A stretch of 64,000 nt of DNA from Planctomycetaceae bacterium (lineage in GTDB: Bacteria; Planctomycetota; Planctomycetia; Planctomycetales; Planctomycetaceae): NCBI GenBank assembly GCA_015485495.1, contig WFTL01000034.1, forward strand, positions 1-64,000, in the 5' to 3' direction. The notes beneath the pieces were generated by a model. The model was not told the origin of the DNA. It did not search any database and saw only the letters and a list, made by a program, of their open reading frames with translations. Below, one piece after another: positions 1 through 23,927 of this stretch (position 1 is the stretch's first letter; the number at the start of each line of letters is the position of its first letter). The translations under genes and the position numbers were made by a program.

Positions 1-196
1 GGTTTGCGAAGCGTCGTCTTCAGGAGCACAACGAGGAGCGTCCGCACAGCAGCCTGGGCTACCGGACACCATCGGAATTTGCGTTGCAGTGTGCCGGCTC
101 CGTTCGGGCAACGCCCTCCGTGCGGGAGCACACTGCGGAATCCCTTACCCACCCCGCACTCTCATAACGCCTGGTACAGAAAATGGGGGCACCTCA
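1..196 (+). mobile_element. Right end of an IS3-family-like insertion sequence
   Basis: The window opens inside the element. The visible part is the 3' end of the transposase gene followed by a terminal segment at 172-196. Read on the opposite strand, that segment begins TGAGGTGCCCCC and then has a T-rich TTTTCTGTACCA stretch. It starts with TG, as IS3-family ends do, and resembles their inverted repeats. The left end and the target duplication lie outside the window, so family and boundary are inferred from the transposase tail and this end alone. Confidence 0.7.
3..167 (+). CDS. IS3-family transposase, C-terminal fragment (cut by window edge)
   Basis: This is the last 54 residues of an open frame entering from the left edge. 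It contains RPHSSLGYRTPSEFA, the hallmark end of the rve/DDE integrase core of IS3-type OrfB transposases. This region normally follows the catalytic glutamate, so the DDE triad is not visible here. The tail after it, to the TAA stop at 165-167, is poorly conserved. The enzyme would cut and join the IS ends. Whether the whole gene is intact cannot be judged from this fragment. Confidence 0.8.
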   Translation, partial: FAKRRLQEHNEERPHSSLGYRTPSEFALQCAGSVRATPSVREHTAESLTHPALS

Positions 197-762
197 GCCG
201 GACAGAAGTGGAGACAAAGAGCGTCCGCCGCACCATCGGCCAGGTCCGCGACAGCCTGGCCGTGCGGTACGAGCGATAGGCTCGCGCGGCCAGGCTGCTG
301 CCGCGGGCCGGTCGACGCGATGCGGTCGCTGAAGCGCGCACTGGACGACGCCGGCAGTCTACGCCCTTCGATCAGATGCCCGCACGCGCCGTTCCGGTCC
401 ATGCACGCCTGGAATTCTGTGCCGGCCGGCCACTCGCAGAAAGCCGTACCGAAGTCGCCGTCGCGGCCTTCCCGGGTACGAACCGAAATCGGAGCGGAAC
501 GGCAGCCCTCCGGTGGCGGATGACGATGATCGCGCACCGAACGACCGGACGGCTCGCGCCGTGCCAGGGCTCTTCTGTCGAACACGTGGCTGTGACAGCA
601 CGTCACCACAGATGGGGCATCGCCGAATGCCGTGGAGGGGAACGACACAGGAAAACATTCTGCAGTTCACCGTGTGCATAGCGCCGTTAAAGGACATCGC
701 ACGTGGTGACGCGGACTTTGCATCGGCGACGGACGTCTGTTCGGCGGCGACCGGGCGGCCTG
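197..762. other. 566-bp stretch between IS end and sialidase gene, no supported gene
   Basis: Several overlapping frames are open on both strands, as expected in GC-rich DNA. None shows a recognisable motif, a good ribosome-binding site or a plausible start. A minus-strand frame over 145-648 runs through the IS end and is more likely chance or a decayed remnant than a gene. No terminator with a T-tract was seen downstream of the sialidase stop. Confidence 0.5.
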
Positions 763-1851
763 TCAGGGTTTCGTGTGTCCCAGAATGGCGTCTTCGTCGA
801 AGATGAGATGATTGATGATCGTGCGTTCGCCGGACGTGTACACGATATGGATTTTTCCGTCGCTGGTCTGCAGCAGGTTCGGGTAGGCGGCCGTGTCTCC
901 CGGGCGATTGACGACATCGCGGCGGTGCGGCCACGTTTTTTCGCCGTCTGTGGAAATCGCCACGGTCAGCGGCATGCGTTCGCCCTGATCGTTGTCGTTG
1001 TACACCAGGACCAGATGCCCGTTCTGCAGGCGGATCATGTCGACGGCGGCATTGGGATTGGGAAAAGCCGTGTCCGCACCGGGACTCCACGTCCGTCCGC
1101 CGTCCCGCGATTCCGTGCGGACGATGAATCCGTCGGGACGCGGCCCGTAACCGCCTCCACGGCGGCAATAGGCCACCAGGTAGTCGTCCGTGATCTGGAC
1201 GGGAGCCGGCTGGAGATTGCCCAGCCGGGAGTACACTCGGTTACTTTCCGTCCACTGGCCGGTCTGCCGATCGCGAATCAGAAACAGCGAACAGGTGTCG
1301 GAACCGACTTCTTCCCGATCGTGTCCGGTTTCATGATAAATCGGCAGAAGCCAGTTGCCGTTGCGAAGAACAATGGGGCGGCTGCGGACCATGGTGCCCT
1401 CTTCGAATGTCAGCAGGACCGGATCGGACCACGTGCGGGCTCCATCGGCAGAGATTTTGTACTTGATGCGTGACGTGGACCAGGTGTCTCCGTATCGCGT
1501 CAGATAAAACAGCCAGACCTCCCCGTTCGGCGCCTGCCAGACGACGGCATTCCCTTCGGAGCGGCCGGGGGTGTCGGCGATCACCACCGGTTTGGTCCAG
1601 GTATCGGATCCGGCCGGAAGCCGGGCACCATACACGGCCGTGTCTTCGCCGTATTCTCCGGAACCTGCGTAATAGACCAGGTACAGATCGCCGTTGTCCA
1701 GTTCATCGAAGGCCGCCGGGTGCTTGTATCGGTTGGGAAGTTCCGGTCCGAAAACACGTTCATGCACGATCTCACCTGCGATTGCCGGCCGGAAACAGCA
1801 GACAGCGGCAGCCGCACAGACAGACACGAAGGCAATGACGGGACGAATCAT
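763..1851 (-). CDS. Secreted sialidase-like (BNR/Asp-box) six-bladed propeller protein
   Basis: A 362-residue protein. It starts with a signal peptide (MIRPVIAFVSVCAAAAV..., cleavage around residue 25). The body has three clear Asp-boxes of the S-x-D-x-G-x-T-W type: SADGARTW, SRDGGRTW and STDGEKTW. Family knowledge places it with BNR_2/GH33-like exo-sialidases, which are abundant in planctomycetes and act on exported glycans. The sugar specificity cannot be read. The start at 1851 is chosen because it puts the signal peptide at the N-terminus; the frame is open 47 codons further upstream. It lies 97 bp downstream of a DUF1080 gene on the same strand, so the two may be co-transcribed. Confidence 0.8.
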   Translation of the reverse strand: MIRPVIAFVSVCAAAAVCCFRPAIAGEIVHERVFGPELPNRYKHPAAFDELDNGDLYLVYYAGSGEYGEDTAVYGARLPAGSDTWTKPVVIADTPGRSEGNAVVWQAPNGEVWLFYLTRYGDTWSTSRIKYKISADGARTWSDPVLLTFEEGTMVRSRPIVLRNGNWLLPIYHETGHDREEVGSDTCSLFLIRDRQTGQWTESNRVYSRLGNLQPAPVQITDDYLVAYCRRGGGYGPRPDGFIVRTESRDGGRTWSPGADTAFPNPNAAVDMIRLQNGHLVLVYNDNDQGERMPLTVAISTDGEKTWPHRRDVVNRPGDTAAYPNLLQTSDGKIHIVYTSGERTIINHLIFDEDAILGHTKP

Positions 1852-1948
1852 CAGAAGAAATCCGAAAAACCAGGTGACAGACGAGGGCCGCTCATCGTAG
1901 CCGGCCGTCCAGGCGATTTCCCGCCGGATCTGCAGGAAAAACGGGCCG

Positions 1949-2740
1949 TCAGTCGGGATCGAGAACCATGAGTTCGACGCGTCGAAAATCACAGGGATGG
2001 CTTTCGGACTGCAGCGAAATCGTGCCGGATTCCAGCAGCAGATGGTCGTCGGAAATCAGGCGGCGGGCATCGGGATCGCGGGGGTCGAGCTGCGGATCGG
2101 TGTATTCGAGAACGACCTGTCCATCGATCAGATGCCGAATGCGGCGGCTTCCACGCACTTCGACTTCCGCCGTGACCCAGCGGTCCAGGTGATAGGTCTT
2201 TGAAGAGGAACGGGTGCAGTGCGGGCGGAACAGGCGCCCGTTGAGAACCACGTTGGTGCCGGGAGTACACAGGTTGCATGTGGTGCGTTCGTGCGTTCCG
2301 TCGCCTCCCAGAAGCTGCACTTCGATGGAAACCGGGAACTTCTGATCCCGAGTCATCGTCGCCGGATCCTGGCCGTGCAGCATGAGGCCGCTGTTGCGAA
2401 TCGCCCAGCGCGGACCGCCGGGAGTCTGTTCGCCCGTGAAACGGTATTCGACCCGCAGCCGGTAGTGCGAAAACGGACGTTCATAGAACAGGTGTCCGAA
2501 ACGGTCCTGGAACGTGTCGTAGGCGTCGTATCGCACCTGGATCATTCCGTCGGCCACTCGAAAGGTGCTGCCGAAGTTTTCGCCGAGCGGATATCCACGG
2601 ATTTTCGGAATCCATCCGGTGAGATCCTTCCCGTTGAACAGCGGGACCCACTGTCCGGTCGGAAATTCAGGAGCGGCTGCTGCTGCCGGTGCGGACAGAA
2701 ACAGAATCGGCAGCAGGCAGAGCAGAGACAGTCGAATCAT
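1949..2740 (-). CDS. Secreted DUF1080 (3-keto-disaccharide hydrolase-like) protein
   Basis: 263 residues with an N-terminal signal peptide (LSLLCLLPILFLSAPAAAAA). The mature start WVPLFNGKDLTGW is the signature opening of DUF1080, a concanavalin-like jelly-roll fold. Later blocks (IRNSGLMLHG, SIEVQLLGGDG, TISLQSE) also match the family. DUF1080 proteins are secreted and expanded in planctomycetes. Some family members hydrolyse 3-keto-glycosides, but substrate here is unknown. Start 2740 is chosen for the signal peptide. It shares a strand with the sialidase-like gene and the PQQ-propeller gene, suggesting a cluster handling external sugars. Confidence 0.85.
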   Translation of the reverse strand: MIRLSLLCLLPILFLSAPAAAAAPEFPTGQWVPLFNGKDLTGWIPKIRGYPLGENFGSTFRVADGMIQVRYDAYDTFQDRFGHLFYERPFSHYRLRVEYRFTGEQTPGGPRWAIRNSGLMLHGQDPATMTRDQKFPVSIEVQLLGGDGTHERTTCNLCTPGTNVVLNGRLFRPHCTRSSSKTYHLDRWVTAEVEVRGSRRIRHLIDGQVVLEYTDPQLDPRDPDARRLISDDHLLLESGTISLQSESHPCDFRRVELMVLDPD

Positions 2741-2847
2741 CGGATCAATGTTTCCTGATGGATGTCGATCGTGAAGATGCGAACACGGCCAGGTTTCCGG
2801 CCGTACGGTTCTGGAGAACATGGTCCCGGGGGACAGTGCGCAAAGAA

Positions 2848-4188
2848 TTACGGTGTTCTCTGTTCGGAAAGGCAGTACAGGTGCCGCAGCGTTCTGAGAT
2901 ACAGGCGGCCTCCGGCGACTGCCGGTGAAGCACGCATGCCTTCGCTCAGCCGATTGCGGCGAATGATTTCCATGGACGGGTCGGCTCGAAACAGCACGAC
3001 CGTTCCGTCTTCATCGGCCGCATAGATCACTCGGCCGATGACGACAGGAGACGCCACGAAGGATCCACCCAGGCGGATTTTGTTGAGTTCTTTTCCGGTG
3101 ACCGCATCCACACAGACAGCAACGCCCTGTCCGGTCACCATGAAGACGCGGCCGTCGTACAGGACAGGGGCCGCCAGACGCGCATTCCCGCGCTGCCGGG
3201 TCCACACGATGTGGGAATCGGTGATGTTGCCGCGGGCCTGAGTGTCCAGAGAGACGGCCAGCAGACTGCCGCGCGTGGCTCCGGTGTGCAGAATCGCCAG
3301 ATCGCGTTCCGGATGGTGACAGAAAATCGGCGGTGCGACTGCGTTGTAGGCATCGTGCCGCACGGTCCAGACTTCTTCGCCGGTCTCCGCGTCGTAGGCG
3401 AAGGCTGCTCGGGCCCCCACGGACACGACGAGCGTACGATTCCCCGACCGGATCAGCCCGGGCGTGCTGAAAGCCTTTCGCAGATCGCCGTCGCGGATGG
3501 GCCGGCCGTTTTCATCCAGGTCGCCGTAGTCGGTGCTGCGGTCCGTTCTCCACACGGTGCGCCCCGTGTCCGTATCCAGCGCCATCAGAAACTGCACATC
3601 GATTCCGTCGAATGTCAGGATGAGCAGATTGTCGTGGAGCACGGGAGAGGATCCAGGGCCCCGGTAGTGTCGGCAGTGAATGTCGCGGCGCTGCCACACG
3701 ACTTTCCGCGTATTCGGGTCGATGCGGGCGGTTCCGTACGATCCGAAATGAGCATACACGGCAGCGTCGGTGACCGTGCAGGACGGCGACGCGTAGGTGT
3801 TCATCGTGTTGCCCAGCGGTTCCGGGTCTTCGTTTTCGAACAGAAGCTGGTGCGCGAGGTGTTTTCCCGTGACCGCATCGATGCAGTCGATGTACTGCCG
3901 ATGGCCGTCGGCCGTGGCCGATGTCAGCCAGATGCGGCCGTTGAGAATCACGGGAGTCGACAGACCGTGTTCAGGGAGCGGAATTTTCCAGAGGACGTTT
4001 TTGCCGGACTGTTCATCCCAGTGCTGTGGAATGCCCGACGCGGCCGATTCGGGAACCACGCTGTTTCCGGTCGGCCCGAATCGTCCGGGCCAGCCGAATT
4101 CATCGGGAGCCTTCCCTGACAGACGGGCCGGCCCTGCCGCCAGAGTCAGCGCGGTCAGCAGCGTGAGGAGGAATCGGAGACCGTTCAT
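2848..4188 (-). CDS. Secreted PQQ-type beta-propeller protein (BamB-like)
   Basis: 446 residues. A signal peptide (MNGLRFLLTLLTALTLAAGPA) is followed by repeats with the PQQ-enzyme pattern, for example YIDCIDAVTGKHLA, LMALDTDTGRTVWR, FAYDAETGEEVWTV and VCVDAVTGKELNKI. Each repeat is one blade of an 8-bladed propeller. In planctomycetes such proteins occur in large numbers; most are not quinoprotein enzymes and probably act as scaffolds or binding proteins in the periplasm. No catalytic motif is seen. The 5' leader contains a 17-bp imperfect direct repeat directly before the start. Confidence 0.8.
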   Translation of the reverse strand: MNGLRFLLTLLTALTLAAGPARLSGKAPDEFGWPGRFGPTGNSVVPESAASGIPQHWDEQSGKNVLWKIPLPEHGLSTPVILNGRIWLTSATADGHRQYIDCIDAVTGKHLAHQLLFENEDPEPLGNTMNTYASPSCTVTDAAVYAHFGSYGTARIDPNTRKVVWQRRDIHCRHYRGPGSSPVLHDNLLILTFDGIDVQFLMALDTDTGRTVWRTDRSTDYGDLDENGRPIRDGDLRKAFSTPGLIRSGNRTLVVSVGARAAFAYDAETGEEVWTVRHDAYNAVAPPIFCHHPERDLAILHTGATRGSLLAVSLDTQARGNITDSHIVWTRQRGNARLAAPVLYDGRVFMVTGQGVAVCVDAVTGKELNKIRLGGSFVASPVVIGRVIYAADEDGTVVLFRADPSMEIIRRNRLSEGMRASPAVAGGRLYLRTLRHLYCLSEQRTP

Positions 4189-4192
4189 TGCG

Positions 4193-4225
4193 GATGCTGT
4201 CAGAGAAAAGATGTTGTCAGAGAAG
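4193..4225. repeat. Imperfect 17-bp tandem repeat in the leader of the PQQ-propeller gene
   Basis: GATGCTGTCAGAGAA at 4193 is repeated as GATGTTGTCAGAGAA at 4210, with one difference in fifteen bases. On the coding (minus) strand this gives two CTCTGACA(A/G)CATC blocks ending a few bases before the ATG at 4188. It may be a protein or RNA binding site, or a slipped-strand duplication. Confidence 0.6.
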
Positions 4226-4345
4226 CGCAGAGGAGCGGTTCAGCCCCGAACAGTCCGGAAACGGGACGGATTCCCGGGGAAGACACCGGTGTTCGGGGGC
4301 AGCGGCTGCCGGCAGGACGGCGGAAGACGCGGCTGCATGCATCGA

Positions 4346-5410
4346 TCAGGGGGACCAGCGGCAGTTGCCGGGGACGACCAGGTCGGCAGACGGGACATCG
4401 CAGTCGAACAGATCGCGAATCCGGGCGGCTGCCTCTTCCGGTGCTATCGTGACGATATCGACATCCGTTGCAAGTTCGAATCCGGCCATTCGTGCAGGCC
4501 GCGGCAGCAGATCCAGATACCAGTGCCCGCATTCGGAATCGGGCGCTGTGCCAGCGGGCAGTTGAACGAGCATCAGATTCAGGGCCACGGTTCTGTGGAT
4601 CGTCTGCAGAGCACCGGCTGCAGCGTGAAGATGGGCCGCCATGGAAATGAGATCACTGTCGGAGGTGTCTGCGAAACGGCGGGAAGCGTTTCGCAGGACA
4701 CAGCGTACCTGCCAGGAGGTGCGGCCGGCAAACGGACAGAGCAGGACGAGGCGATCGGTGACGGCGATCAGACGCTGCTGCTGAGACAGTTCTGCTTCGA
4801 TCAGATCGGTCAGCAGACTGTGTCCGGTGCGGCGGCGGTAGTCACAGGCACGCTGAACGCGTCTTTCCGTTTCCGGCGGCACGCTGTTCAGAGCGAGAAT
4901 CTGTGAATGGACGTGGGGCAAAGAAGCGCCCGCACTGAATCCTTCGTTCCGGAAGGCGACGACGGACCGAATCGGGGCGGTCTGTTCGAGCACCCTCGTG
5001 CGGCGCTTCCAGGCCAGCAGAATGCGAGCCGCTTCGGGTACCGTCAGATCGGTCAGGCGGCGAACCGGACGGGGAGATTCGATGACGACTTCGTGCTGGC
5101 CGGCTGCGGAAACGGCCGGGAACAGATTCGTCGCGGACTGCGGAACGGCGGCCTCAGGCCGAACGGCGGGGAACTGATTGGGGACGATGCGCAGCAGCCA
5201 GCCGGGGGCATTGGCGGAAGAATCCACCGAGCGCAGTGCCAGGACCTCGCCGGGAGTGTCCTGTTCCCTCCCTTCCAGAAAGGGGTCACCACCGGGAGGA
5301 TCCGAAAGGGACGGTTCCGGCCCGGACGCTCCAGGCCGAGCACCGCGTTCCGGGGCGACGATGACCTGGCGGCCGGTGAGGATGTCCGTTCGCAGTGAAG
5401 AATCCGGCAC
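4346..5410 (-). CDS. Galactose-1-phosphate uridylyltransferase-like enzyme
   Basis: 354 residues with the GalT/HIT architecture. The active-site motif is HVHSQ at residues 166-170, corresponding to HPHxQ of GalT, where the second His forms the uridylyl intermediate. RIVPNQFPAV near residue 75 and GHWYLDLLPR near 293 are also GalT-like. The usual zinc-binding CPFC block is replaced by DPFL at 42-45 in an otherwise matching context (GREQDTPGEV). It would exchange UMP between UDP-glucose and galactose-1-phosphate (Leloir pathway). Given the changed motifs, an ADP-sugar or other nucleotidyl substrate is possible. No galK or galE is nearby. Confidence 0.75.
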   Translation of the reverse strand: MPDSSLRTDILTGRQVIVAPERGARPGASGPEPSLSDPPGGDPFLEGREQDTPGEVLALRSVDSSANAPGWLLRIVPNQFPAVRPEAAVPQSATNLFPAVSAAGQHEVVIESPRPVRRLTDLTVPEAARILLAWKRRTRVLEQTAPIRSVVAFRNEGFSAGASLPHVHSQILALNSVPPETERRVQRACDYRRRTGHSLLTDLIEAELSQQQRLIAVTDRLVLLCPFAGRTSWQVRCVLRNASRRFADTSDSDLISMAAHLHAAAGALQTIHRTVALNLMLVQLPAGTAPDSECGHWYLDLLPRPARMAGFELATDVDIVTIAPEEAAARIRDLFDCDVPSADLVVPGNCRWSP

Positions 5411-5497
5411 GCGGCTACCTGGACCGTTCTGCGTCGGCAGCCGTTTCGGTGCTGCCGCCTGTGGGGAGACACGAAACCATCAGCGATGCTCCGTCTG

Positions 5498-5854
5498 TCA
5501 GCGCACGGCGTCCGGATAGCGCCGCCCGACCGGAACGGGAGGCAGGGCATCCGGATCGACCGGCTGACCGTACAGGATCCGGTTCTGGGCGGCCCGACGT
5601 TCGATGGTTCGGGGAGTACGAAAATCGCGGGGGCGGTCATTCAGATCCGGTCCGATCGCCGGGTCGAACAGAGGATCGGAGCGTTCCCAGGAAAGTCGTT
5701 CGGCCGCCGGATGCGGCCGAATGCAGCTCGGGAAGCGCGTGTTCCGGGGAGTGATGCATCCACATGCGCACAACAGAACGATGACGAACGGAACGCGGCG
5801 AAAGCCGGTGCGCGGCGGCGACGGGCCTGGAAACATGTCGAAAAGCAGGCGCAT
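5498..5854 (-). CDS. Small predicted lipoprotein
   Basis: 118 residues. The N-terminus has basic residues, a hydrophobic stretch (VPFVIVLLC) and a lipobox-like LCAC/ACGC, so it is probably exported and lipidated at Cys31 or Cys33. The mature part is polar and proline-rich, with WERSDPLFDPAIGPD and a run of arginines. I recognise this general layout from short planctomycete lipoproteins of unknown role, but no enzymatic family. It lies 87 bp upstream of the GalT-like gene on the same strand and may be its operon partner. Met7 is an alternative start. Confidence 0.6.
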   Translation of the reverse strand: MRLLFDMFPGPSPPRTGFRRVPFVIVLLCACGCITPRNTRFPSCIRPHPAAERLSWERSDPLFDPAIGPDLNDRPRDFRTPRTIERRAAQNRILYGQPVDPDALPPVPVGRRYPDAVR

Positions 5855-5963
5855 GGATCGGAAACTTCCGTGCGACGGCGGCCGGCCGCACGAGCCGGGC
5901 GGAGGGAAGGGGGTGACTGGAATGACTCAGGAGGGAGCTGTCGGGAAGTCCAGGGTGACTTGT

Positions 5964-5976
5964 ACTGTCAGACAGT
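5964..5976. promoter_or_regulatory. 13-bp palindrome ACTGTCAGACAGT upstream of the lipoprotein gene
   Basis: Perfect inverted repeat with a single central base, 110 bp upstream of the lipoprotein start. On the minus strand it sits between a possible -35 (TTGCTG) and -10 (TACAAG), so it could be an operator for the lipoprotein-galT unit. Regulator unknown. Confidence 0.35.
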
Positions 5977-6088
5977 CCGTCGCAGCAAGATGAACCTGGC
6001 AGGATCTGCAGATGGGACCGGTGAAAAGGCGAATGATGCCGCTGAATCGGCCGGAGCAGCAGCGCAGGAGACCTGTGGTGGATTCGTT

Positions 6089-6117
6089 TTGACACGTTCG
6101 AAGATTGTTTCTATGGT
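6089..6117 (+). promoter_or_regulatory. Sigma-70-type promoter of the candidate small RNA
   Basis: Perfect -35 TTGACA at 6089-6094, a 17-bp spacer, then TATGGT at 6112-6117. Transcription would start near 6124. No plus-strand reading frame of note follows before the terminator at 6167-6205. Confidence 0.6.
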
Positions 6118-6123
6118 CCCCGC

Positions 6124-6205
6124 TTCCGCACGACGCGGTGGACGGATTCACCGAAGTGAGGAACGAAGCGGCGCAGCCATGGATGGCTCCGGCCGCTTTT
6201 TTTTT
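6124..6205 (+). ncRNA. Candidate small RNA of about 80 nt
   Basis: A near-consensus promoter points into an 80-nt stretch that ends in an intrinsic terminator. The interior can form a short hairpin (GGTG...CACC around 6138-6152) before the terminator stem. It contains no start codon with a useful frame. It does not match the conserved cores of SRP RNA, tmRNA, RNase P RNA or 6S RNA that I know. The call rests only on the promoter-terminator pairing. Confidence 0.45.
6167..6205 (+). terminator. Rho-independent terminator
   Basis: Stem AGCGGC (6167-6172) pairs with GCCGCT (6192-6197). An inner stem AGCC/GGCT (6175-6178 with 6185-6188) lies inside it. Nine T residues follow at 6197-6205. This is the clearest intrinsic terminator in the window and serves only the plus strand, where no gene lies upstream except the candidate small RNA. 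Confidence 0.75.
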
Positions 6206-6330
6206 GTGACCGGGGGCCGGGGCTGATTCGCCGCGGAAGAAGCCGGCAGCCGGTGGCTGTGGATCGGCCCCAGGCCCACCTGGCGTGGAGCCTGGTGAAC
6301 CGTGCGGGGGCCGGTGGCCCGTCACCGATG

Positions 6331-6368
6331 AGAGGCGGTCTGTCGAAGTAAGAGGCGGTCTGTCGAAG
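6331..6368. repeat. 20-bp tandem duplication
   Basis: AGAGGCGGTCTGTCGAAG occurs at 6331-6348 and again, identically, at 6351-6368, separated by TA. A perfect 18-base match at a 20-bp period suggests recent duplication. Confidence 0.8.
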
Positions 6369-6394
6369 CGTCGGTCCGCCAAAGGAAGGCAGCC

Positions 6395-6405
6395 GGGGGG
6401 GGGGG
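6395..6405. repeat. Homopolymer run of 11 G
   Basis: Eleven consecutive G residues in non-coding DNA about 140 bp upstream of the cupredoxin promoter. Runs of this length are prone to slippage and can also be assembly error points. Confidence 0.75.
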
Positions 6406-6522
6406 TGCAGGCCGGTGGCCGGCTGATGGATCCGGATGAGGGACCTGGCGGCGAATGGTCCGAATATGCGGATTCTGAAGGGCGGGAACGGCATCAGGTG
6501 TGCCGGGAATTCGTCTGAAGAA

Positions 6523-6553
6523 TTCGACTTCGGTTCCGGGCGATTCCTATAAT
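6523..6553 (+). promoter_or_regulatory. Promoter of the cupredoxin gene
   Basis: Perfect -10 TATAAT at 6548-6553. The best -35 is weak, TTCGAC at 6523-6528, with a long 19-bp spacer. The predicted start near 6560 gives a leader of about 90 nt to the ATG at 6649. Confidence 0.5.
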
Positions 6554-6648
6554 GCGTGCGGCGAACCGGCCGGCATGCAGTGCGGTGGCACGGACAGGTT
6601 CATGCGAGGCGTGGTTGTTCGTCAGGATGTTGGGGTGAGGTATCATTT

Positions 6649-7401
6649 ATGAACAGACTGTTTGTCGTGTGTGCCGTGGCTGTGTCTTTCCTGATGCCGG
6701 CGGCATCGGCTGCGGACGGATGGGGATCGGTGAAGGGGCGGATCATCTGGAAGGGCGATGTGCCTGAACCGGTTCTGCTGCACCCGAAAGGGGCATCCGT
6801 GAAGGATGCGGAAGTGTGCGCAGCGACCGACATGTACCGCCAGGACCTGGTTGTCGATCCGGAAACAAAGGGCATTGCCAACATCTTCATCTATCTGCGG
6901 AAGGCTCCGAAGAAGATCCACCCGGATGCAAAGGAATTCGAAAGTTCGGTCATCTTCGACCAGAAGAACTGCACGTTCATTCCGCATGCGATGCTGGTCC
7001 GCGCCGGCCAGTCCGTGGAAGTGCTCAACAGCGATCCGGTCGCTCACAACACGCACACCTATCCGATTCGCAACAAGGGGGAGAACCTGACGGTCGCTCC
7101 CATGACAACGGCCGGCAAAGGGCCGCTGTTTACAACGCGGGCCTCCGAGATTCTGCCGACGGAAGTCAAGTGCGACTTTCACGGCTGGATGAACGCCTAC
7201 TGGCTGATTCTGAATCATCCGTATGCGGCCATTACCGCGAAGGACGGGTCTTTCGAAATCAGCAATCTGCCGGCCGGGCGGCACAAGTTCCGCGTGTGGC
7301 ACGAACGGGTGGGTTATCTGGAACGCAGCCTGGTGGTGGAAATCCGCGACGGAGAAACGACTGAGCTGAAAACGCTGGAATACGAAATCCACGAAAAGTA
7401 G
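6649..7401 (+). CDS. Secreted cupredoxin-like protein with C-terminal carboxypeptidase-regulatory-like domain
   Basis: 250 residues with a signal peptide (MNRLFVVCAVAVSFLMPAASA). The middle is a cupredoxin fold. His133 in SDPVAHNTH, with Cys175, His178 and Met181 in KCDFHGWM, form a complete type 1 copper set (C-x2-H-x2-M). Residues from about 190 (AAITAKDGSFEISNLPAG) match the carboxypeptidase-regulatory-like beta-sandwich. Proteins of this layout are often labelled methylamine utilisation or plastocyanin-like in planctomycetes; an electron-transfer or copper-binding role in the periplasm is inferred. It is followed after 5 bp by a small membrane protein gene. The start is fixed by the signal peptide. 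Confidence 0.8.
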   Translation: MNRLFVVCAVAVSFLMPAASAADGWGSVKGRIIWKGDVPEPVLLHPKGASVKDAEVCAATDMYRQDLVVDPETKGIANIFIYLRKAPKKIHPDAKEFESSVIFDQKNCTFIPHAMLVRAGQSVEVLNSDPVAHNTHTYPIRNKGENLTVAPMTTAGKGPLFTTRASEILPTEVKCDFHGWMNAYWLILNHPYAAITAKDGSFEISNLPAGRHKFRVWHERVGYLERSLVVEIRDGETTELKTLEYEIHEK

Positions 7402-7406
7402 CGAAC

Positions 7407-7571
7407 GTGAAGCAGCAGATCGGTGTTTTTCTGCAGATGGTCGTACTGAGCGCTCTGCCGGCGCTCATTGCGTACCAGTTGTTTTTCGGCATTCCTTTGA
7501 TCGTGATGCCGGCCTGTCTGCTGGCAGGTGTGCTGGTTTTCTCAGTGGGAACCCGGCTGCGGGAACACTGA
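7407..7571 (+). CDS. 54-residue membrane protein, hypothetical
   Basis: GTG start 5 bp after the cupredoxin stop. The product has a short polar start (KQQIG), two hydrophobic segments (about residues 6-27 and 29-47, with LSALPALIAYQLFFGIP between) and a basic end (GTRLREH). The tight spacing and two-helix hairpin layout argue for a real gene. No family recognised. It lies between the cupredoxin and HlyD-type genes, so all three could form one transcript acting at the cell envelope. Confidence 0.55.
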   Translation: MKQQIGVFLQMVVLSALPALIAYQLFFGIPLIVMPACLLAGVLVFSVGTRLREH

Positions 7572-7663
7572 CGTCGGTGGCGGGACCGTCGGCGTCGTCG
7601 ATCGTACGGCGCAGCGTGTTCATCGGTGCAGGGCGCGGCGTCTGACGCGGGAGTCGAACTGTC

Positions 7664-9097
7664 ATGACCGATGCGGACAGGTCGCGGGTGCTGCTTCGTC
7701 GCGTCCTGATTTCAGAAGCCGTGATTGCGGCGATTGTCCTGGTCAGTGGCGGGGGCTTCCTGCTGCTCAGCGCGCAGAAACCTCAGGTGACAACGAAACA
7801 GGCCGCTGTGAGGCATCTGAATATCGATGCCTTCGCAGTGGATCCGGTGACGTTCCGGGAGGTTCTGACGGCCTGGGGAACGGCCAGGGCCGATCGGGAA
7901 GTCGTTGTGGCCGCTCAGGTGCCCGGCGAGGTCGTGGAAGTGCATCCGCGGCTGGAAGTCGGTGAACAGGTTTCCGCCGCATCGGGACTGGTTTCTTCCG
8001 AACAGGCAACCCATCTGCACCGGGGAGACACGCTGGTTCAGGTGGATGAGCGGGAGTACGTGCGGCGTGTGGAACAGGCCCGAACGCGTCTGGCCGAAGC
8101 GACGCGGAGCGTGGAACAGCTTCGGAAGCAGGAGGCCAACAGTCAGCGGCTGCTGAAGAAGGCCCGAACGGATGTGGTGGCGTTCGAAAAGGAATACGAA
8201 CGTTTCCGCAGGGCGTTTTCGCTGAATGCGGGGGCCGAATCGGAAGTGACGCGGGCTCTGGTGGAACTGCAGAGGGCCCAGGAAGTCATTCTGAAGCTGG
8301 AAAACGCGGTCCGCCTGTTTCCTGTTCAGATCGCGGCCGCGGAAGATCGTCTGGCGGCTGCCCAGGTCGAACTGGAGCGGGTCACCGACGATCTGCGGCG
8401 GACGCGCGTGATCGCTCCCTTCGACGGGGTTCTCAGCGAGGTCATGGTGGAACAGGGACAGTACGTGCGGGCCGGAGAACCGCTGTTTCGGCTGACCGAT
8501 CTGAGACGCATCGAGATTCCGGTGGCCATCGGTCTGGATGACTGGCAGGAGATTTCGGCTGCTCTGCGGCAGGGAGATTCGCCGGATGTCCGTCTGGCGA
8601 CCGGACAGTCGGCGGCCGCCCGCTGGACCGGCCGGATCGTTCGGATTTCTCCAAAGGCCGACCCGGAATCACGGACGATTCGCGCCTTCGTGGAAGTTCT
8701 CAACGACCAGCAGGAACAAAAGCTTTTGCCGGGTACCTTTGTTCACGCCCGCATCACGGGGGCTTTGAGGTCGGATGCCATTGTCATTCCGCGGGAATGT
8801 GTTTATGACGGACATGTGTTCATCGTGCGGGACGAAGGAATCGTGCACCGGCAGCCCGTGAAACAGGGACGGCGCCTCAAATCGCTCGTCGTGATCACGG
8901 AAGGACTGACCGGAAACGAACAGATTGCCACGACGAATCTGAATCTGCTTCGGGAAGGACGACGGGTGGAGATCCAGGAAACGACAGACCTGACGGATGA
9001 ACTGGCCGTTCAGTCGTGGCCGCTCATTGAGATCGTGCAGTCGCCTGAGCTGACTCAGTCACCGGGCGGTCCTTCTGTTCCGGACTCGGTTCGCTGA
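7664..9097 (+). CDS. HlyD/RND-type periplasmic adaptor (membrane fusion protein)
   Basis: 477 residues. One transmembrane anchor is at 14-37. Then come the first half of a lipoyl-like domain (VVVAAQVPGEVVEVHPRLEV), a long coiled coil (about 130-255, rich in Glu/Arg/Gln heptads), the second lipoyl half (RTRVIAPFDGVLSEVMVEQG), a beta-barrel and a membrane-proximal domain. It would link an inner-membrane pump to an outer-membrane channel. Unusually, no RND or ABC pump gene follows; the next gene is rsmE. A longish insert (about residues 95-117) lies between the first lipoyl half and the coiled coil. Start ATG at 7664. Confidence 0.85.
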   Translation: MTDADRSRVLLRRVLISEAVIAAIVLVSGGGFLLLSAQKPQVTTKQAAVRHLNIDAFAVDPVTFREVLTAWGTARADREVVVAAQVPGEVVEVHPRLEVGEQVSAASGLVSSEQATHLHRGDTLVQVDEREYVRRVEQARTRLAEATRSVEQLRKQEANSQRLLKKARTDVVAFEKEYERFRRAFSLNAGAESEVTRALVELQRAQEVILKLENAVRLFPVQIAAAEDRLAAAQVELERVTDDLRRTRVIAPFDGVLSEVMVEQGQYVRAGEPLFRLTDLRRIEIPVAIGLDDWQEISAALRQGDSPDVRLATGQSAAARWTGRIVRISPKADPESRTIRAFVEVLNDQQEQKLLPGTFVHARITGALRSDAIVIPRECVYDGHVFIVRDEGIVHRQPVKQGRRLKSLVVITEGLTGNEQIATTNLNLLREGRRVEIQETTDLTDELAVQSWPLIEIVQSPELTQSPGGPSVPDSVR

Positions 9098-9135
9098 GAC
9101 GGACAATCTGTCGGATGTCTCCAGGAACGGACTCC

Positions 9136-9843
9136 ATGACTGCCCGATTCTATTGTGCGGATCTGTCCGGCGCGGATGCGGTTCTGAATGAAACGGAATC
9201 GCACCATGCGCTGCACGTGTTGCGCATGCGCGAAGGGGACGAAGCGGAACTTTTCGACGGCGGCGGAATCACGGCCGAAGCTGTGATTGAGCAGACGGAT
9301 CGACGCTGCGTGCGGCTGCGAATCCGTTCCCGGCGGACCGTCCCGCTGCCGCAGCGCCCTTCTCTGACTGTCGCCGCCGCCGTTCCCCGGGGTGACCGTC
9401 TGCGCAGCATGATCGAAAAACTGACGGAACTGGGAGTCGACCGCGTGATTCCTCTGCGGACTCAGCGGTCCGTCGCCGATCCTCGACCCGGACGGATCGA
9501 CCGGCTGCAGGCCACCGTGATTTCGGCGATGAAACAGAGCGGCCGGAATCATCTGCTGAAAGTGGAGGAAGCCATGGAGTTTTCCGTGGTTCTGAGAAAC
9601 GCGGCCGGCTCCGGGCAGGTCCTTTATATGGCGCATCCGGGGCGAGCTGCTGAACAGCAGCCGGTGATCCCGGAGCGTGATGCTCTGTTGCTGATCGGTC
9701 CGGAGGGCGGGTTCACGTCCGAAGAAGTCCTGCAGGCGGCAGACTACGGAGCGCACCGACTCATCTGGCCGGAAGGGATCCTGAGAATCGAGACGGCGGC
9801 TGTCGTGTTTTCTGCTCTGCTGCTCAGCCGCCTGCATGGCTGA
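9136..9843 (+). CDS. rsmE: 16S rRNA (uracil-1498-N3)-methyltransferase RsmE
   Basis: 235 residues, normal length. It begins with MTARFYC and has a PUA-like N-terminal domain (ESHHALHVLRMREGDEAELFDG). The SPOUT methyltransferase domain includes LRTQRSVADP and the knot motif LLIGPEGGFTSEEV. It uses S-adenosylmethionine to methylate U1498 of 16S rRNA in the 30S subunit. Start 9136 has AGGAA 8 bp upstream; 9115 is an alternative. Housekeeping gene; its position after the HlyD gene looks incidental. Confidence 0.9.
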   Translation: MTARFYCADLSGADAVLNETESHHALHVLRMREGDEAELFDGGGITAEAVIEQTDRRCVRLRIRSRRTVPLPQRPSLTVAAAVPRGDRLRSMIEKLTELGVDRVIPLRTQRSVADPRPGRIDRLQATVISAMKQSGRNHLLKVEEAMEFSVVLRNAAGSGQVLYMAHPGRAAEQQPVIPERDALLLIGPEGGFTSEEVLQAADYGAHRLIWPEGILRIETAAVVFSALLLSRLHG

Positions 9844-9923
9844 CGCTGCAGCCGGGCGACTGCGTTTTCCGACCGGTTCGGGCACGGGCGGGGAACGCCG
9901 CACCGGATCAGGCGGGACGGCCG

Positions 9924-10181
9924 TTATGAATCGGTGACGGCCGAATCGGTGGTCGTGCCGTTCGATTCGGGGGCCGTTGTGCGGTCCACTTTTCGACCGA
10001 CGAAAACCATGACGCCTCCGATTCCCCCCAGGACGATGCCGCTGGCAGCGCTCACCAGCACAGCGCGGACGTCTGTCGGGTGCCAGAAGATGCCGGCCAG
10101 CACCAGAAGTCCCAGAACAAGAAAGAACGAACCCAGGATTCTCAGCGTGATGCCGTCGCGGTGGGGGGAAGATTCGGTCAT
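9924..10181 (-). CDS. Small two-helix membrane protein, hypothetical
   Basis: 85 residues. Two hydrophobic stretches, LGSFFLVLGLLVLAGIFW and VLVSAASGIVLGGIGGVMVFVG, are flanked by a polar N-terminus and a Thr/Ser-rich tail. The second helix is glycine-rich. No family is recognised. It is the last gene of a likely operon with a 135-residue membrane protein (48 bp upstream) and a sodium:solute symporter, so it may be an accessory subunit or simply co-transcribed. Confidence 0.6.
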   Translation of the reverse strand: MTESSPHRDGITLRILGSFFLVLGLLVLAGIFWHPTDVRAVLVSAASGIVLGGIGGVMVFVGRKVDRTTAPESNGTTTDSAVTDS

Positions 10182-10229
10182 GGCAGGCGGCCTGTTCGGG
10201 AAAAACGCGCGGGGGATCGGCAGCCGGAT

Positions 10230-10637
10230 TCAGCGGCCCAGCAGCAGGTAAATGAGGATGTAGGGAAGAACGACGACGGTCGCCCAGATCCGCAGATCCC
10301 GCCACCATGCCTGGTCGGGGGCTCCTCGAAAAATGAAACTGCGTTTCAGAGTCCAGACCCAGAGGACGGCCGCTGCGAACAGTCCCATGCAGCAGACCAT
10401 GGCCACCCACATGGGAACCTGGCCCAGCCAGACATCGATGGGGTGGTGCAGTGTGTGCAGAGGCGGTCCCAGGTGTTCTGCGAGCCAGCGGCTGAGTGCT
10501 TCGACGGCTTCCACGATCAGCGGTGTCCGGGGCTGTGAATCGTCCTGTGACACTGCCTGCCGGGCCACTGTTTCCGGAGTCGCTGCCAGGAACAGCAGTG
10601 CTTCAGCCGTCCGCACGACGCAATATCCGTTTGCCAT
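10230..10637 (-). CDS. Membrane protein linked to sodium:solute symporter, hypothetical
   Basis: 135 residues with two or three predicted helices, notably PMWVAMVCCMGLFAAAVLWV and WATVVVLPYILIYLLLGR, and a hydrophobic start. A W-rich loop (RGAPDQAWWRDLRIWA) separates the last two helices. It starts 4 bp after the symporter stop, so translation is likely coupled. Small membrane partners downstream of SSS transporters are common in planctomycetes, but their role is not established. Confidence 0.65.
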   Translation of the reverse strand: MANGYCVVRTAEALLFLAATPETVARQAVSQDDSQPRTPLIVEAVEALSRWLAEHLGPPLHTLHHPIDVWLGQVPMWVAMVCCMGLFAAAVLWVWTLKRSFIFRGAPDQAWWRDLRIWATVVVLPYILIYLLLGR

Positions 10638-10641
10638 CGGT

Positions 10642-12171
10642 TCAGTCCTCCGCGGCGTCTTTTGTGATGACGGAACGGTACACCAGGCCGGTCAGTTTTT
10701 CCGGCGGATCTGAGGGAGTCATCAGACTCACGACGACGGTCACGGCCAGAGAAACGAGAAAGGACCAGACGGCAACATACAGATACGACGAATCGGACAT
10801 GAAGACGGCGTCTCCGATGGCGTTCAGTCCAAAAGTGAGGCAGAATCCGACCAGCAGGCCGGCGCAGCCGCCCCACGCGGTCGCTCGCCGCCAGAAAATC
10901 CCCAGCAGCAGAATGGCGAGCGTGGGGCCCTGAAACAGAGACAGCAGCGTCTGCAGAACGTCGTACAGGGTTTCGAACCGTGAGAAGACCGGAGCGAGGG
11001 TGGCGGCGAACAGGAGGACGGCGGCCGTCATGGAACGTCCCAGAATCATTCCCGTGCGATCGGGAACCGGCCGTCCCGTCACCTTTTCGTAGATCGGACG
11101 GAAAAAGTCGCCCGTAAAAATGGTGACGCAGGAATTCAGATAAGAATCGACACTGGACATGAGGGCGGCGAAGAAGGCCGCGAAGACCAGACCTTTCAGT
11201 CCGGTGGGCATGAGCAGATTGATGAGCGCCGGAATGGCCGCATCGTGCGGTTCGATATCCGGCACGATGGCCCGGGCAATCATGCCGGGAACGAAAACCA
11301 GAAGCGGAATCGCCATTTTGAACAGGCCGGCTGTCAGGACACCGGCTTTCGCGTCCCATTCCGTGCGGGCTCCCAGAGCCCGCTGCATGACCGCCTGATT
11401 GCCCACGTAGTATCCCGTGGACATCACGATGCCCAGACTGAAGACCATGCCCGTCCAGGGGTATTCGGTGTGTTCGTTGTGAGGATGCAGCAGCCGGAAG
11501 TAATCGGCGGTGGTGTCCGGCTGAGCGGAAACGTCGGTGACGAGTCCCGAGATGCCGCCCACTTCCCAGAAACCCAGCACCAGCAGCGCGGCCATGCCGA
11601 CGAACATGATGATCAGCTGCATCACATCAGTCATCACAACGGCTGCCATACCGCCGCTGACTGTGTAAATCCCCACCACAAGCGCCGTGATCCAGATGGC
11701 CACCAAGGGGGGCATGTCGAGAACCTCCTTCATGAACACTGCGGATGTCCACAGAAGAATGGACAGGGTGACGGCCATGAACAGAAGGAGAACCGAGGCG
11801 AGACTCCACCGGGTCAGGCCGTTGTAACGCCGTCCGAGAAACTCCGGCAGCGTGTAGACTCCGGTGCGCCAGTAGTACGGAACGAACAGGAAAGCGGCCA
11901 GCAGCAGTGCCGGGACGGAACCGATCCAGTCGAAGTTGGCCTGGGCCAGGCCCCGGTCATACGCCGCGCCGGCTCCGTTGATCAGGTCCGTGGCGCCGAT
12001 ATCGCTGACGACCATCGACATGCCGATGGCCCAGAACGGCAGGCTGCGACCGCCCAGAAACAGGTCGCCGGCGGAATGCACGTAGCGGGAAAAGTAGCTG
12101 CCGACGAACAGCACGCCGAGCATGTACACGGCGATGATGATGTAGTCGATGGATGCGAGCGACTGGGACAT
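10642..12171 (-). CDS. Sodium:solute symporter (SSS family)
   Basis: 509 residues and about 13 predicted transmembrane helices. The N-terminal SSS pattern is clear: SIDYIIIAVYMLGVLFVGSY, then GGRSLPFWAIGMSMVVSDIGA, where the sodium-site serines and small residues lie. A second signature is YTVSGGMAAVVMTDVMQ, and SSVDSYLNSC lies around helix 8. It imports a solute with Na+ at the inner membrane. Family members carry sugars, amino acids, pantothenate or nucleobases; the substrate cannot be read from sequence. It is first in a unit with two small membrane proteins and lies 82 bp downstream of the carboxyltransferase gene. Confidence 0.85.
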   Translation of the reverse strand: MSQSLASIDYIIIAVYMLGVLFVGSYFSRYVHSAGDLFLGGRSLPFWAIGMSMVVSDIGATDLINGAGAAYDRGLAQANFDWIGSVPALLLAAFLFVPYYWRTGVYTLPEFLGRRYNGLTRWSLASVLLLFMAVTLSILLWTSAVFMKEVLDMPPLVAIWITALVVGIYTVSGGMAAVVMTDVMQLIIMFVGMAALLVLGFWEVGGISGLVTDVSAQPDTTADYFRLLHPHNEHTEYPWTGMVFSLGIVMSTGYYVGNQAVMQRALGARTEWDAKAGVLTAGLFKMAIPLLVFVPGMIARAIVPDIEPHDAAIPALINLLMPTGLKGLVFAAFFAALMSSVDSYLNSCVTIFTGDFFRPIYEKVTGRPVPDRTGMILGRSMTAAVLLFAATLAPVFSRFETLYDVLQTLLSLFQGPTLAILLLGIFWRRATAWGGCAGLLVGFCLTFGLNAIGDAVFMSDSSYLYVAVWSFLVSLAVTVVVSLMTPSDPPEKLTGLVYRSVITKDAAED

Positions 12172-12253
12172 GGGATTTCCGGAAGCATTCAGGGCAGGAC
12201 GGGCGGGAGTCTAGCAGACGGTTTTTCGCCGAACCACTGACCTGAGAACGCCT

Positions 12254-13843
12254 TCACACCTGAAAAACTCCGGTCCGGAACGGCTGCGGGATTTCCCGGG
12301 GCAGAAAGGACAGCGCTGTCTGGAGCCATGAACGGGTTTCGTGCGGGGGGATGATGGCGTCCACCCAGCCCCGGGCCGCTCCATAGCGAATGTCGGTCTG
12401 TTCTTCATAGCGGGTGCGGATCGTGTCCTTCAGAGCGGCGCGGTCCTGGTCGGACAGTTCCTGTCCCGAACGGCGGGCTTCCCGCAGCTTCAGAGACAGC
12501 AGGGTGTCTGCGGCCTGGGCGCCTCCCATCACGGCGTAGCGGGCGCACGGCCAGGCGAGAATCAGGGTCGGATCGTAGGCCTTGCCGCACAGAGCGTAAT
12601 TGCCGGCTCCGAATGAACCACCGATGATCACCGTCAGTTTGGGGACGACCGAATTGCTCATGGCATTCACCAGTTTGGCTCCGGCCCGAATGATGCCGTG
12701 CTGCTCCGACTGCTTCCCGACCATGAAGCCCATGACGTCCTGGAAGAAAATCAGAGGAATGCGCATCTGGTTGCAGTCCATGACGAAGCGGGCGGCTTTG
12801 GATGCGGCATCGGCATACAGGACACCGCCGATCTGCAGTTCTCCGTCAGCGGCCTGCCGGCGTGTTTTCTGGCTGGCCACGATGCCGACACTCCGCCCGC
12901 CGATGCGGGCGAAGGCGGTGATGAGGGTCTGTCCGTAGTCGCGTTTGTATTCGTCGAGCGATTCGGGGTCGACGATGCATCGGAGCACGTCGCGCATGTC
13001 GTATTCGGCCGTGCCGTCGGCCGATACCAGATCGTACAGCGGTTCAGCGGCCGGGCCGTGATCGACGGATGTGGCTGCCAGCGGCGTGTGCTGCGGCAGG
13101 TGGGCGAACAGGGACCGGAGCCGTTTCAGACAGGACGTATCATCCGGCTCGTGAAAATCGACGGTGCCGCTGATGGACGCATGCATGGAGGCTCCGCCGA
13201 GTTCTTCCGGATCGACGATCTGTCCCAGCGCGGCACGGACGAGTGCCGGGCCGGCCAGGCACATCTGACTGCCTTCTGTCATCAGAACCGTGTCGCACAG
13301 CACCGGCAGATAGGCACCTCCGGCGATGCAGTTGCCCATGACGGCCGCATACTGGGGAATTCCGGCTGCCGACATGACGGCGTTGTTGCGAAACACGCGG
13401 CCGAAATCGTCTTCGTCCGGAAAGATTTCGTCCTGCAGGGGAAGGAAGACGCCGGCGGAATCCACGAGATACACGGCCGGAAGCTGAGCCAGCATGGCGA
13501 TGCGCTGGGCCCGCAGCAGCTTCTTGACCGACTGCGGAAACATGGCCCCGGCTTTGACCGTGGCGTCGTGTGCGGCAATCACGCAGGGACGTCCGTGAAT
13601 GAACCCGATGCCCGTGACGATTCCGGCGGCCGGTACCGGACCGGTGTCTTCATACATGTTCCAGGCGGCCCACAGACCCAGTTCCCGGAACGGGCGGTCC
13701 GGATCGAGAAGCTGCTGGAGACGTTCCCGAACCGGCAGCCGTCCCAGTTTTTTCTGCCGCTGGTGGCCGGCCGGGCCGCCGCCTTCCCGCAGAACGGCTT
13801 CCTGGCGAACAAGATCGTCGGTGAGTTGACGGAGGTCAGTCAC
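12254..13843 (-). CDS. Acyl-CoA carboxylase, carboxyltransferase (beta) subunit
   Basis: 529 residues, the usual size for the beta subunit of methylcrotonyl-, geranyl- or propionyl-CoA carboxylase. The family profile is strong: LLDPDRPFRELGLWA, GRPCVIAAHDATVKAGAMFP, GSQMCLAGPALVRAALGQ and the glycine-rich acyl-CoA pocket VIIGGSFGAGNYALCGKAYD. With MMGFMVGKQ-like GFMVGKQSEQHGI it is closest to 3-methylcrotonyl-CoA carboxylase subunits. It transfers CO2 from biotin to an acyl-CoA. No biotin-carboxylase or biotin-carrier gene is adjacent. The GTG start at 13843 is preferred: GGAG lies just upstream, and the extra 58 codons before it look non-coding. Confidence 0.85.
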   Translation of the reverse strand: MTDLRQLTDDLVRQEAVLREGGGPAGHQRQKKLGRLPVRERLQQLLDPDRPFRELGLWAAWNMYEDTGPVPAAGIVTGIGFIHGRPCVIAAHDATVKAGAMFPQSVKKLLRAQRIAMLAQLPAVYLVDSAGVFLPLQDEIFPDEDDFGRVFRNNAVMSAAGIPQYAAVMGNCIAGGAYLPVLCDTVLMTEGSQMCLAGPALVRAALGQIVDPEELGGASMHASISGTVDFHEPDDTSCLKRLRSLFAHLPQHTPLAATSVDHGPAAEPLYDLVSADGTAEYDMRDVLRCIVDPESLDEYKRDYGQTLITAFARIGGRSVGIVASQKTRRQAADGELQIGGVLYADAASKAARFVMDCNQMRIPLIFFQDVMGFMVGKQSEQHGIIRAGAKLVNAMSNSVVPKLTVIIGGSFGAGNYALCGKAYDPTLILAWPCARYAVMGGAQAADTLLSLKLREARRSGQELSDQDRAALKDTIRTRYEEQTDIRYGAARGWVDAIIPPHETRSWLQTALSFLPREIPQPFRTGVFQV

Positions 13844-14206
13844 GGAGGACTCCAGGAACAGGCTTTCAGACGATGGAGATCGCCGGAGGGCACCAGGCGA
13901 TGAAGAACATGCGACTGCGAAGAACAGCGTGCGGCCGGGTCGACAGAATGCCGGGCAGCCGTTCGATCGGTCGGCGGCCCGGCGGAAACAGCAGGCCGCG
14001 ATTGTAGGCCGGTCCACGGTGCGGTACGAACACGGCTGAGTCGGATCCTGAACGAATCCCGGGATTTGCCGGGCCCGGGGCAGCCGTGATTTCGGGGGCT
14101 TCGGCGGGAATTCTGCAGAATTCCTGACGGGAGACGGCAGCGTGCGGCAACCGTTTCCTCAGAGATCTCTGTGGCAGTGCCGGTTTTTCCGGTATGGTAA
14201 CTTTCA
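13844..14206. other. 363-bp divergent intergenic region
   Basis: This lies between the carboxyltransferase gene (minus) and the ECF sigma gene (plus) and must hold both promoters. A TATGGT at 14192-14197, only 10-15 bp before the sigma start, might be a -10 element giving a very short leader. A minus-strand frame here begins with TTG and has no SD; I do not accept it. Confidence 0.4.
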
Positions 14207-14722
14207 ATGACCGCGACTCCTCAGGCTGTTTACCTCGAGAACGAAAGCTGGCTGCGCACCGTGGTGCGCAGTCGGGTGCAGGAAGCGGACGCGGTCGAGG
14301 ACATCATGCAGAACATCGCGCTGGCGCTGGTGCGCCAGCGTGATGCTCTGAAAGACATCAGCCAGGTGGGAGCCTGGCTGTATCAGGTGGCTGTCCGGCA
14401 GATCATGATGTACCGCCGGACGACGGGCCGTCGCAGGAACTTCGAGAATCGCCTGGCTGCTCAGGTGACCGAACGGACCGCAGCGGCACCGGATCCGGTC
14501 GCCAGTGTTCTGGCGGCCGAAAAGCAGGAAGCCGTTCGAGAAGCTGTCGGGAAACTCAGTGAACTGGACCGACAGGTTCTCATGCTGAAGTACGTGGAAG
14601 GATGGACGTATCGTCAGCTGGCCGAAATGCTGGGGGTGTCGGAAGACACGATCGAATATCGCCTGCTGAAGGCACGCCGCAGGCTCAAATCTCTGCTCAG
14701 GACCACAGTGGAGGCAGCATGA
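14207..14722 (+). CDS. ECF-type RNA polymerase sigma factor
   Basis: 171 residues. Region 2 contains EADAVEDIMQNIALALVRQ and VGAWLYQVAVRQIMMYRR (promoter melting and -10 recognition). Region 4 contains LSELDRQVLMLKYVEGWTYRQLAEMLGVSEDTIEYRL (-35 helix-turn-helix). No region 3, as usual for ECF factors. The short linker is Ala/Thr rich. The stop overlaps the start of the next gene (ATGA), which is a membrane protein likely to act as its anti-sigma partner. Confidence 0.9.
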   Translation: MTATPQAVYLENESWLRTVVRSRVQEADAVEDIMQNIALALVRQRDALKDISQVGAWLYQVAVRQIMMYRRTTGRRRNFENRLAAQVTERTAAAPDPVASVLAAEKQEAVREAVGKLSELDRQVLMLKYVEGWTYRQLAEMLGVSEDTIEYRLLKARRRLKSLLRTTVEAA

Positions 14723-15222
14723 CTTCTGCAGAACGACTGGACCTGCTGATGCAGCGGGCCGTGGACGAGGAGCTGTCACCGGCTCAGCGGCACGAACTTC
14801 TGGACCGGCTGGCGGAATGCCCCGATGGCTGGAAACGTCTGGCCTGTTCGTTCCTCGAAGATCAGCTCGTGGCCAGCGGAATCCGACAGTCGGGGACGCG
14901 GCGTTCCGCCGATCCGTGTGACGAACCGACCGTGCAGCCTTTGAGAACACCGCGGGGGTTCTGGTATCAGCATCCGGCGCTGTCCACCGCGATTTCCATC
15001 TGCCTGGCATTTCTGCTGGGACTGGCCGTTTCGGGAACAGATGCCGACAGAACACCGGGGGTGGCGGGATCGGTCGGACGGCATGCGGAATCCGTGACGG
15101 TCGATACGACGCCGGAACCGGCAGGGCCTTCCGTAGCAGAACAGGAAGCGCTGAGGCGGGAAATGGAACTGCTGCGACGGACGCTGGAAGCATTCGGTCG
15201 TCCGGACGGAGGCGTTCCCTGA
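14719..15222 (+). CDS. Probable membrane-anchored anti-sigma factor
   Basis: 167 residues, ATG overlapping the sigma-factor stop by 4 bp. The N-terminal 50 residues (LLMQRAVDEELSPAQRHELL) resemble the cytoplasmic helical part of planctomycete anti-sigma proteins. There is no HxxxCxxC zinc motif. One transmembrane helix (ALSTAISICLAFLLGLAVS) is followed by an exported tail ending in a heptad-like EALRREMELLRRTLEAF. Function is inferred from the coupling with the ECF gene and the topology, not from a recognised family match. Confidence 0.6.
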   Translation: MTSAERLDLLMQRAVDEELSPAQRHELLDRLAECPDGWKRLACSFLEDQLVASGIRQSGTRRSADPCDEPTVQPLRTPRGFWYQHPALSTAISICLAFLLGLAVSGTDADRTPGVAGSVGRHAESVTVDTTPEPAGPSVAEQEALRREMELLRRTLEAFGRPDGGVP

Positions 15223-15265
15223 ACACCAGGCGGGTTTCCGGCCGTAGTCCGCAGCGGCTGCCGGA

Positions 15266-16540: not shown

Positions 16541-16612
16541 GTCTGATTTCCGCGCTGTGCGGGGGACGGAGTCCTGCTGTTCGGCAGGTGATGGCAGGCC
16601 GGCACAGGCTGT

Positions 16613-23732: not shown

Positions 23733-23927
23733 TCAGCCGGGGGCGCCCGCCCGGTTCTCCTTCATTTCCCGCTGAATGGCATCGTAGACTTCTTCGCGGT
23801 GAACTGAAATGTCGCGTGGGGCATCGATGCCGATGCGCACCTTGTCGCCTCGAACATCCACAACCGTGATGCGAATCGAATCTCCGATGACGATCGTCTG
23901 GTCACGCTGTCTCGAAAGAACCAGCAT
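23733..23927 (-). CDS. csrA: Carbon storage regulator CsrA
   Basis: 64 residues, complete. MLVLSRQRDQTIVIGDSI and the second RNA-binding segment APRDISVHREEVYDAIQ match CsrA, including the conserved Arg after HREEVY. CsrA is a dimeric RNA-binding protein that binds GGA motifs near ribosome-binding sites and controls translation. A perfect GGAGGT lies 8-10 bases before the start at 23927, which fixes it against a 47-codon upstream extension of the frame. Confidence 0.95.
   Translation of the reverse strand: MLVLSRQRDQTIVIGDSIRITVVDVRGDKVRIGIDAPRDISVHREEVYDAIQREMKENRAGAPG

Follow-up and report, generated by a model that had tools for sequence, protein, structure and literature searches.

Does the interval 6089-6205 of the plus strand, where a promoter and a terminator lie close together with no gene between them, encode a small RNA, and what might such an RNA do? 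The window analysed is the whole 64,000-nucleotide stretch of planctomycete DNA, and all coordinates refer to it. The promoter is of the sigma70 type (6089..6117, plus strand) with a -35 hexamer TTGACA (6089-6094), a 17-nt spacer and a -10 hexamer TATGGT (6112-6117), as the sequence-only reading had described it, and directly 3' of the -10 hexamer the sequence is GC-rich. The predicted small RNA, of about 82 nt, would extend from 6124 to 6205 (plus strand), the start being inferred from the position of the -10 box; its evidence consists of the fold (z -3.13), covariation and a covariance model match. The stem and nine T residues reported at its end are present, and this T-run (T9, 6197-6205) is the sole run of eight or more T in the window, both strands having been scanned. 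The terminator (6165..6205) was not among the sites listed by a scan for loops of 3-8 nt, since a further hairpin sits within its outer stem.

Inspection of the flanking sequence bore out the claim that the terminator follows no gene. No convincing gene lies upstream of the RNA on the plus strand, where a 246-aa ORF (5486-6226) sits opposite a divergent lipoprotein-like gene (5498..5854, minus strand; 118 aa, no Pfam family). The interval itself had been described as free of ORFs; no reading frame is consistently open across nine homologues from genera g1 and g55, and a small ORF was rejected on this basis. The RNA had also been placed between a lipoprotein and a cupredoxin gene. The first of these neighbours stands, as most genomes with the RNA have the lipoprotein-like gene next to it, whereas the "cupredoxin" gene (6649-7401, plus strand) is not a conserved partner, because in genome G001 the gene downstream of the RNA is a different one on the minus strand. 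The protein matched no cupredoxin family in a Pfam search, which gave weak, sub-threshold CarboxypepD_reg-like matches, and it has four further homologues in the genome. That the RNA is the leader of the downstream gene was rejected in view of the different gene in G001, the 444 nt between the T-run and that gene, and a second promoter-like site (6524-6553) lying between the two. Two tandem copies of AGAGGCGGTCTGTCGAAG are found at 6330-6370, in the stretch that separates the RNA from the downstream gene.

Segment 6124-6207 has a folding energy of -36.6 kcal/mol, while its shuffles average -26.6 (z -3.13; one of 200 shuffles as good). Hairpin 1 (6124..6163, plus strand) displays the loop ACGGAT (6142-6147; GGA 6144-6146), and hairpin 2 (6165..6205, plus strand), which is the intrinsic terminator, has the inner loop ATGGAT (6179-6184) flanked by GCC and GGC, that is, C-ANGGAN-G; these loops are candidate CsrA sites 1 and 2. 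An alignment of eight sequences contains 24 base pairs in four helices, with 94.8% of cells paired against 55.0% in the best slid control. Changes on both sides were seen in 14 of the 24 pairs (8.2 in shuffles) and in 35 cells (11.9 in shuffles), which are not independent events since the eight sequences fall in two clades; at several pairs, three to five kinds of base pair occur. A covariation check on homologous regions, of the kind that had been proposed for this locus, gave a score of 0.634 against 0.292 in shuffles, and for every measure none of 500 shuffles reached the observed value.

BLASTN searches of 59 genomes with 6080-6215 gave one full-length match outside the source genome, in G001 of the same genus (70% identity, E 1.9e-7); G002 was matched in part. 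In both, the RNA segment is divergent from the same lipoprotein-like gene and has TTGACA and a -10-like box at equal spacing. The lipoprotein-like gene is present in 155 of 170 family genomes, and reading upstream of it (30 loci, later 110 of the 155 genomes, one of these regions being just 29 nt long) revealed the RNA in a second genus, g55. Paired ANGGAN hairpins were found upstream of the gene in 8 of the 110 genomes against 0.05 in shuffles, and seven of these regions hold this RNA while the eighth (L056) does not; on the opposite strand such pairs occur in 3 of 110. The RNA lies divergent from the lipoprotein-like gene in the two other genomes of its genus and in six of the eight g55 genomes.

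A covariance model with eight seeds found the RNA in all three g1 genomes and in six of eight from g55. The window copy, itself a seed of the model, was matched at 6119-6204 with 72.5 bits, and the weakest of the nine g1/g55 matches (E 0.0079) was that in G069, the sole non-seed among them. Genera g54 (G067, G065) and g73 (G157) have related forms that share the promoter distance and the pair of ANGGA hairpins, the G067 form adjoining the lipoprotein-like gene and the G065 form lying on another contig. With limited sensitivity, 12 of the 170 family genomes, from at least four genera, were found to carry the RNA. Among its carriers is a MAG of Fuerstiella, a genus of Planctomycetaceae (L171); a scan of named genomes gave 25 stretches and two of the five read (L171, L181) are RNA copies. 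The -35 hexamer is TTGACA in 11 of the 12 homologues (TTGACT in one) and the spacer is 17 nt in all 12, under a search pattern that already required TTGAC[AT], 16-18 nt and TA...T.

Other searches were less productive. A first scan of the genome contigs with P0002 found nothing, and the covariance search of 397 genomes of the class, in which scoring was confined to 11-26 first-look candidates in each genome and distant copies can be missed, added nothing convincing. Rfam gave no gathering match in the window, unrelated families alone appearing at E up to 10, and nothing relevant for the 12 homologous loci at E up to 1. The pattern TTGACN{76,90}GCCANGGAYGGC occurs in the 170 genomes at 58 places, 29 of which were read individually, and the reversed control yields about 36; most of these matches are background. 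Among the covariance-model matches L085 and L246 were rejected since they lie inside ORFs, and L086 since it matches the terminator half of the model only; in L245 an ORF is followed by one ANGGA hairpin. A further match of the model (L083, 1501-1585, minus strand; G185, g75), a two-hairpin RNA with loops ACGGAU and ACGGAC and a T8 terminator, lies directly 3' of what we take to be a PII-like (glnB-like) gene.

These comparisons bear on the reading that there is no gene here, only a promoter and terminator brought together by chance or a leftover terminator. Sigma70-like matches in positions 1-20000 number three, close to the shuffle mean of 2.3, as that reading would expect, and the promoter match by itself is not beyond chance for the region; the comparative evidence is the convincing part. 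Covariation, conserved position and the conserved promoter in relatives speak against this reading, which we consider highly improbable, and covariation and conserved position were the grounds on which a chance terminator or promoter was rejected. Loss of the stem and promoter in relatives had been named beforehand as the outcome that would count against a small RNA; promoter, stems and loops are all conserved. With its conserved promoter, covarying two-hairpin RNA, intrinsic terminator, lack of a conserved ORF and recurrence at the same place in several species, the proposal of a stand-alone small RNA is supported, and the stretch is very probably a real small RNA gene.

The most constant part of the RNA is found in its ANGGA loops. 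Two such hairpin-loop motifs are present per RNA at all 12 loci, and despite differing stems both loops retain A.GGA in 8 of 8 seeds and 12 of 12 loci; the first A is kept at both sites in all 12. These counts have to be read with the route of discovery, since the presence of ANGGA helped to select some of the loci: G001 was found via BLAST, G002 via BLAST and position, and g55 via position, then promoter and ANGGAN, while the g54/g73 forms were found with criteria including TTGAC or GCCANGGAYGGC, which makes loop constancy least independent there. Site 2 is a hexaloop at all 12 loci and hairpin 2 here reads C-ANGGA[UC]-G. At site 1 the eight-sequence consensus shows a hexaloop, whereas the loop has 7 nt in G069 and in the forms from g54 and g73. 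The GGA starts are 37 nt apart in the window RNA; within g1/g55 their distance ranges from 37 to 40 nt, and in g54/g73 it is 25-26 nt. G070 additionally contains a second ANGGA that overlaps. Of the terminator-like sites in the planctomycete loci examined, 2 of 73 have an ANGGA(N) loop and both are copies of this RNA, the number being an undercount in that the inner loop of the window copy was not picked.

According to the available text of the review PMC7652899, RsmE contacts a hairpin whose loop is the hexanucleotide ANGGAN, SELEX gave the consensus RUACARGGAUGU, and the majority (44) of SELEX hairpins have six-nucleotide loops. In the predicted fold of the window RNA the hexaloops are closed by an A-U pair, which counts against the CsrA-decoy reading. 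The genome possesses six CsrA genes, one of them in the window (23733..23927, minus strand; 64 aa; PF02599, 89.7 bits, E 1.2e-25). Its product, the presumed partner protein among the six paralogues, aligns gap-free to solved CsrA (1y00, 2bti); the RsmE-type entries 2jpp/2mf0 are matched as well. CsrA is present in all 170 family genomes, in 3-17 copies each. FliW, a protein antagonist of CsrA, was found in 0 of 170 family genomes (0 of 37 in a smaller family set) and in 14 of 22 genomes from other families of the class. The two ANGGAN loops, the six CsrA paralogues and the lack of FliW suggest an RNA that binds CsrA, and such binding is likely.

We favour, as probable, a two-hairpin RNA with its own promoter and terminator, each loop presenting A-N-G-G-A, which would bind about one CsrA dimer and titrate CsrA. 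An RNA of about 82 nt would be transcribed from its own sigma70-type promoter and ended at the intrinsic terminator, its two hairpins each presenting the loop shape bound by proteins of the CsrA/RsmE family. As the second site is inside the terminator hairpin, every finished transcript would carry both sites. Sites separated by some tens of nucleotides can both be bound by a single CsrA dimer, and with two clear ANGGA hairpins there is room for about one dimer per RNA at most; most likely one dimer would grip both loops of a single RNA. Produced in quantity, the RNA would titrate CsrA off mRNA leaders, as CsrB/RsmZ do in gammaproteobacteria, in a minimal two-site design. That titration is its main role has a good chance of being right. 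We also speculate that CsrA might protect or alter the 3' end, the terminator hairpin being one of the sites.

The same molecule could instead be a base-pairing small RNA whose C/U-rich 5' region pairs with mRNA Shine-Dalgarno sequences, CsrA serving as partner or chaperone in the manner of SR1 or being titrated incidentally in the manner of McaS/GadY. The 5' region is indeed C/U-rich in the g1 and g55 copies, and SR1 (Bacillus subtilis), McaS and GadY are precedents in the available text of PMC7652899. However, the C/U stretch is paired inside hairpin 1, where its sequence varies while the pairing is largely kept, and the highest constancy sits in the ANGGA loops instead, so that we consider this reading unlikely. 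The loops by themselves do not reveal what binds them, and the six CsrA paralogues may differ in specificity; hence the conserved GGA loops might bind something other than CsrA, either another RNA-binding protein or, by pairing, a pyrimidine-rich RNA. Against this, the first A of ANGGA is kept at both sites in all 12 loci, as recognition by CsrA requires and simple GGA pairing does not, and we regard such a ligand as improbable.

The proposed titration of CsrA by this RNA may be compared with known systems. By its sequence it is like CsrB/CsrC and RsmX/Y/Z of the gammaproteobacteria, being a stand-alone, terminator-ended small RNA with GGA in hairpin loops, no conserved ORF and a genome with CsrA (six genes). 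It is unlike them in having two sites instead of many, no Rfam match, a planctomycete host and a terminator loop that is itself a site. Transcription driven by BarA-UvrY/GacS-GacA is a feature of the gammaproteobacterial Csr/Rsm circuit. CsrB, in the available text of PMC7652899, binds ~18 CsrA subunits; that this RNA has two clear sites where classical sponges have more counts against the CsrA-decoy reading. The RNA would work like a Csr sponge while being a member of no Rfam Csr/Rsm family and lacking the many sites. McaS and GadY (E. coli), which the same partial source gives as having at least two GGA motifs and binding CsrA, share that number of motifs with it and differ in being base-pairing small RNAs. 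The flaA 5'UTR of Campylobacter jejuni, which is reported to be able to titrate CsrA, is alike in its two stem-loops, ANGGA in each loop and compensatory changes; it forms the leader of an mRNA, in a species that has FliW, whereas here a separate gene is found in a FliW-less family.

Whether a minimal two-site RNA with a terminator doubling as a CsrA site controls CsrA in this FliW-less family with 3 to 17 csrA genes per genome is evenly poised. Found, at limited sensitivity, in 12 of 170 genomes while FliW is absent family-wide, the RNA cannot be a general FliW replacement. The part of PMC4682653 available proposes sRNA antagonists of CsrA driven by BarA-UvrY as gammaproteobacterial and Planctomycetes, among others, as possible FliW users. 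A planctomycete family with CsrA in each genome examined, FliW in none and a conserved RNA with CsrA-type loops in at least four genera contrasts with that proposal, and makes the question of CsrA control in the family directly testable via one small RNA. A literature search that took in few subscription papers listed no planctomycete Csr small RNA. If the reading is true, RNA control of CsrA arose outside Proteobacteria.

Some further elements possibly linked to CsrA were encountered. At ~1000-1120 of the matching strand, L225-L232 (g72, eight genomes) have a conserved leader with a hairpin of the type YCAGUC-NNGGAY-GACUGG, in which GCCANGGAYGGC stands a few nucleotides 5' of a possible ATG; these matches look like CsrA-repressed mRNA leaders and not like this RNA. 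In g24 (L238, plus strand; L239 and L240, minus strand) the start codon of a gene lies within a GCCAAGGATGGC hairpin, ~100 nt past position 1000 on the matching strand. The predicted N-terminus of the product, MADVLSQSEVESLLSALDPG, resembles by eye that of FliM, and the gene is a candidate CsrA target in motility.
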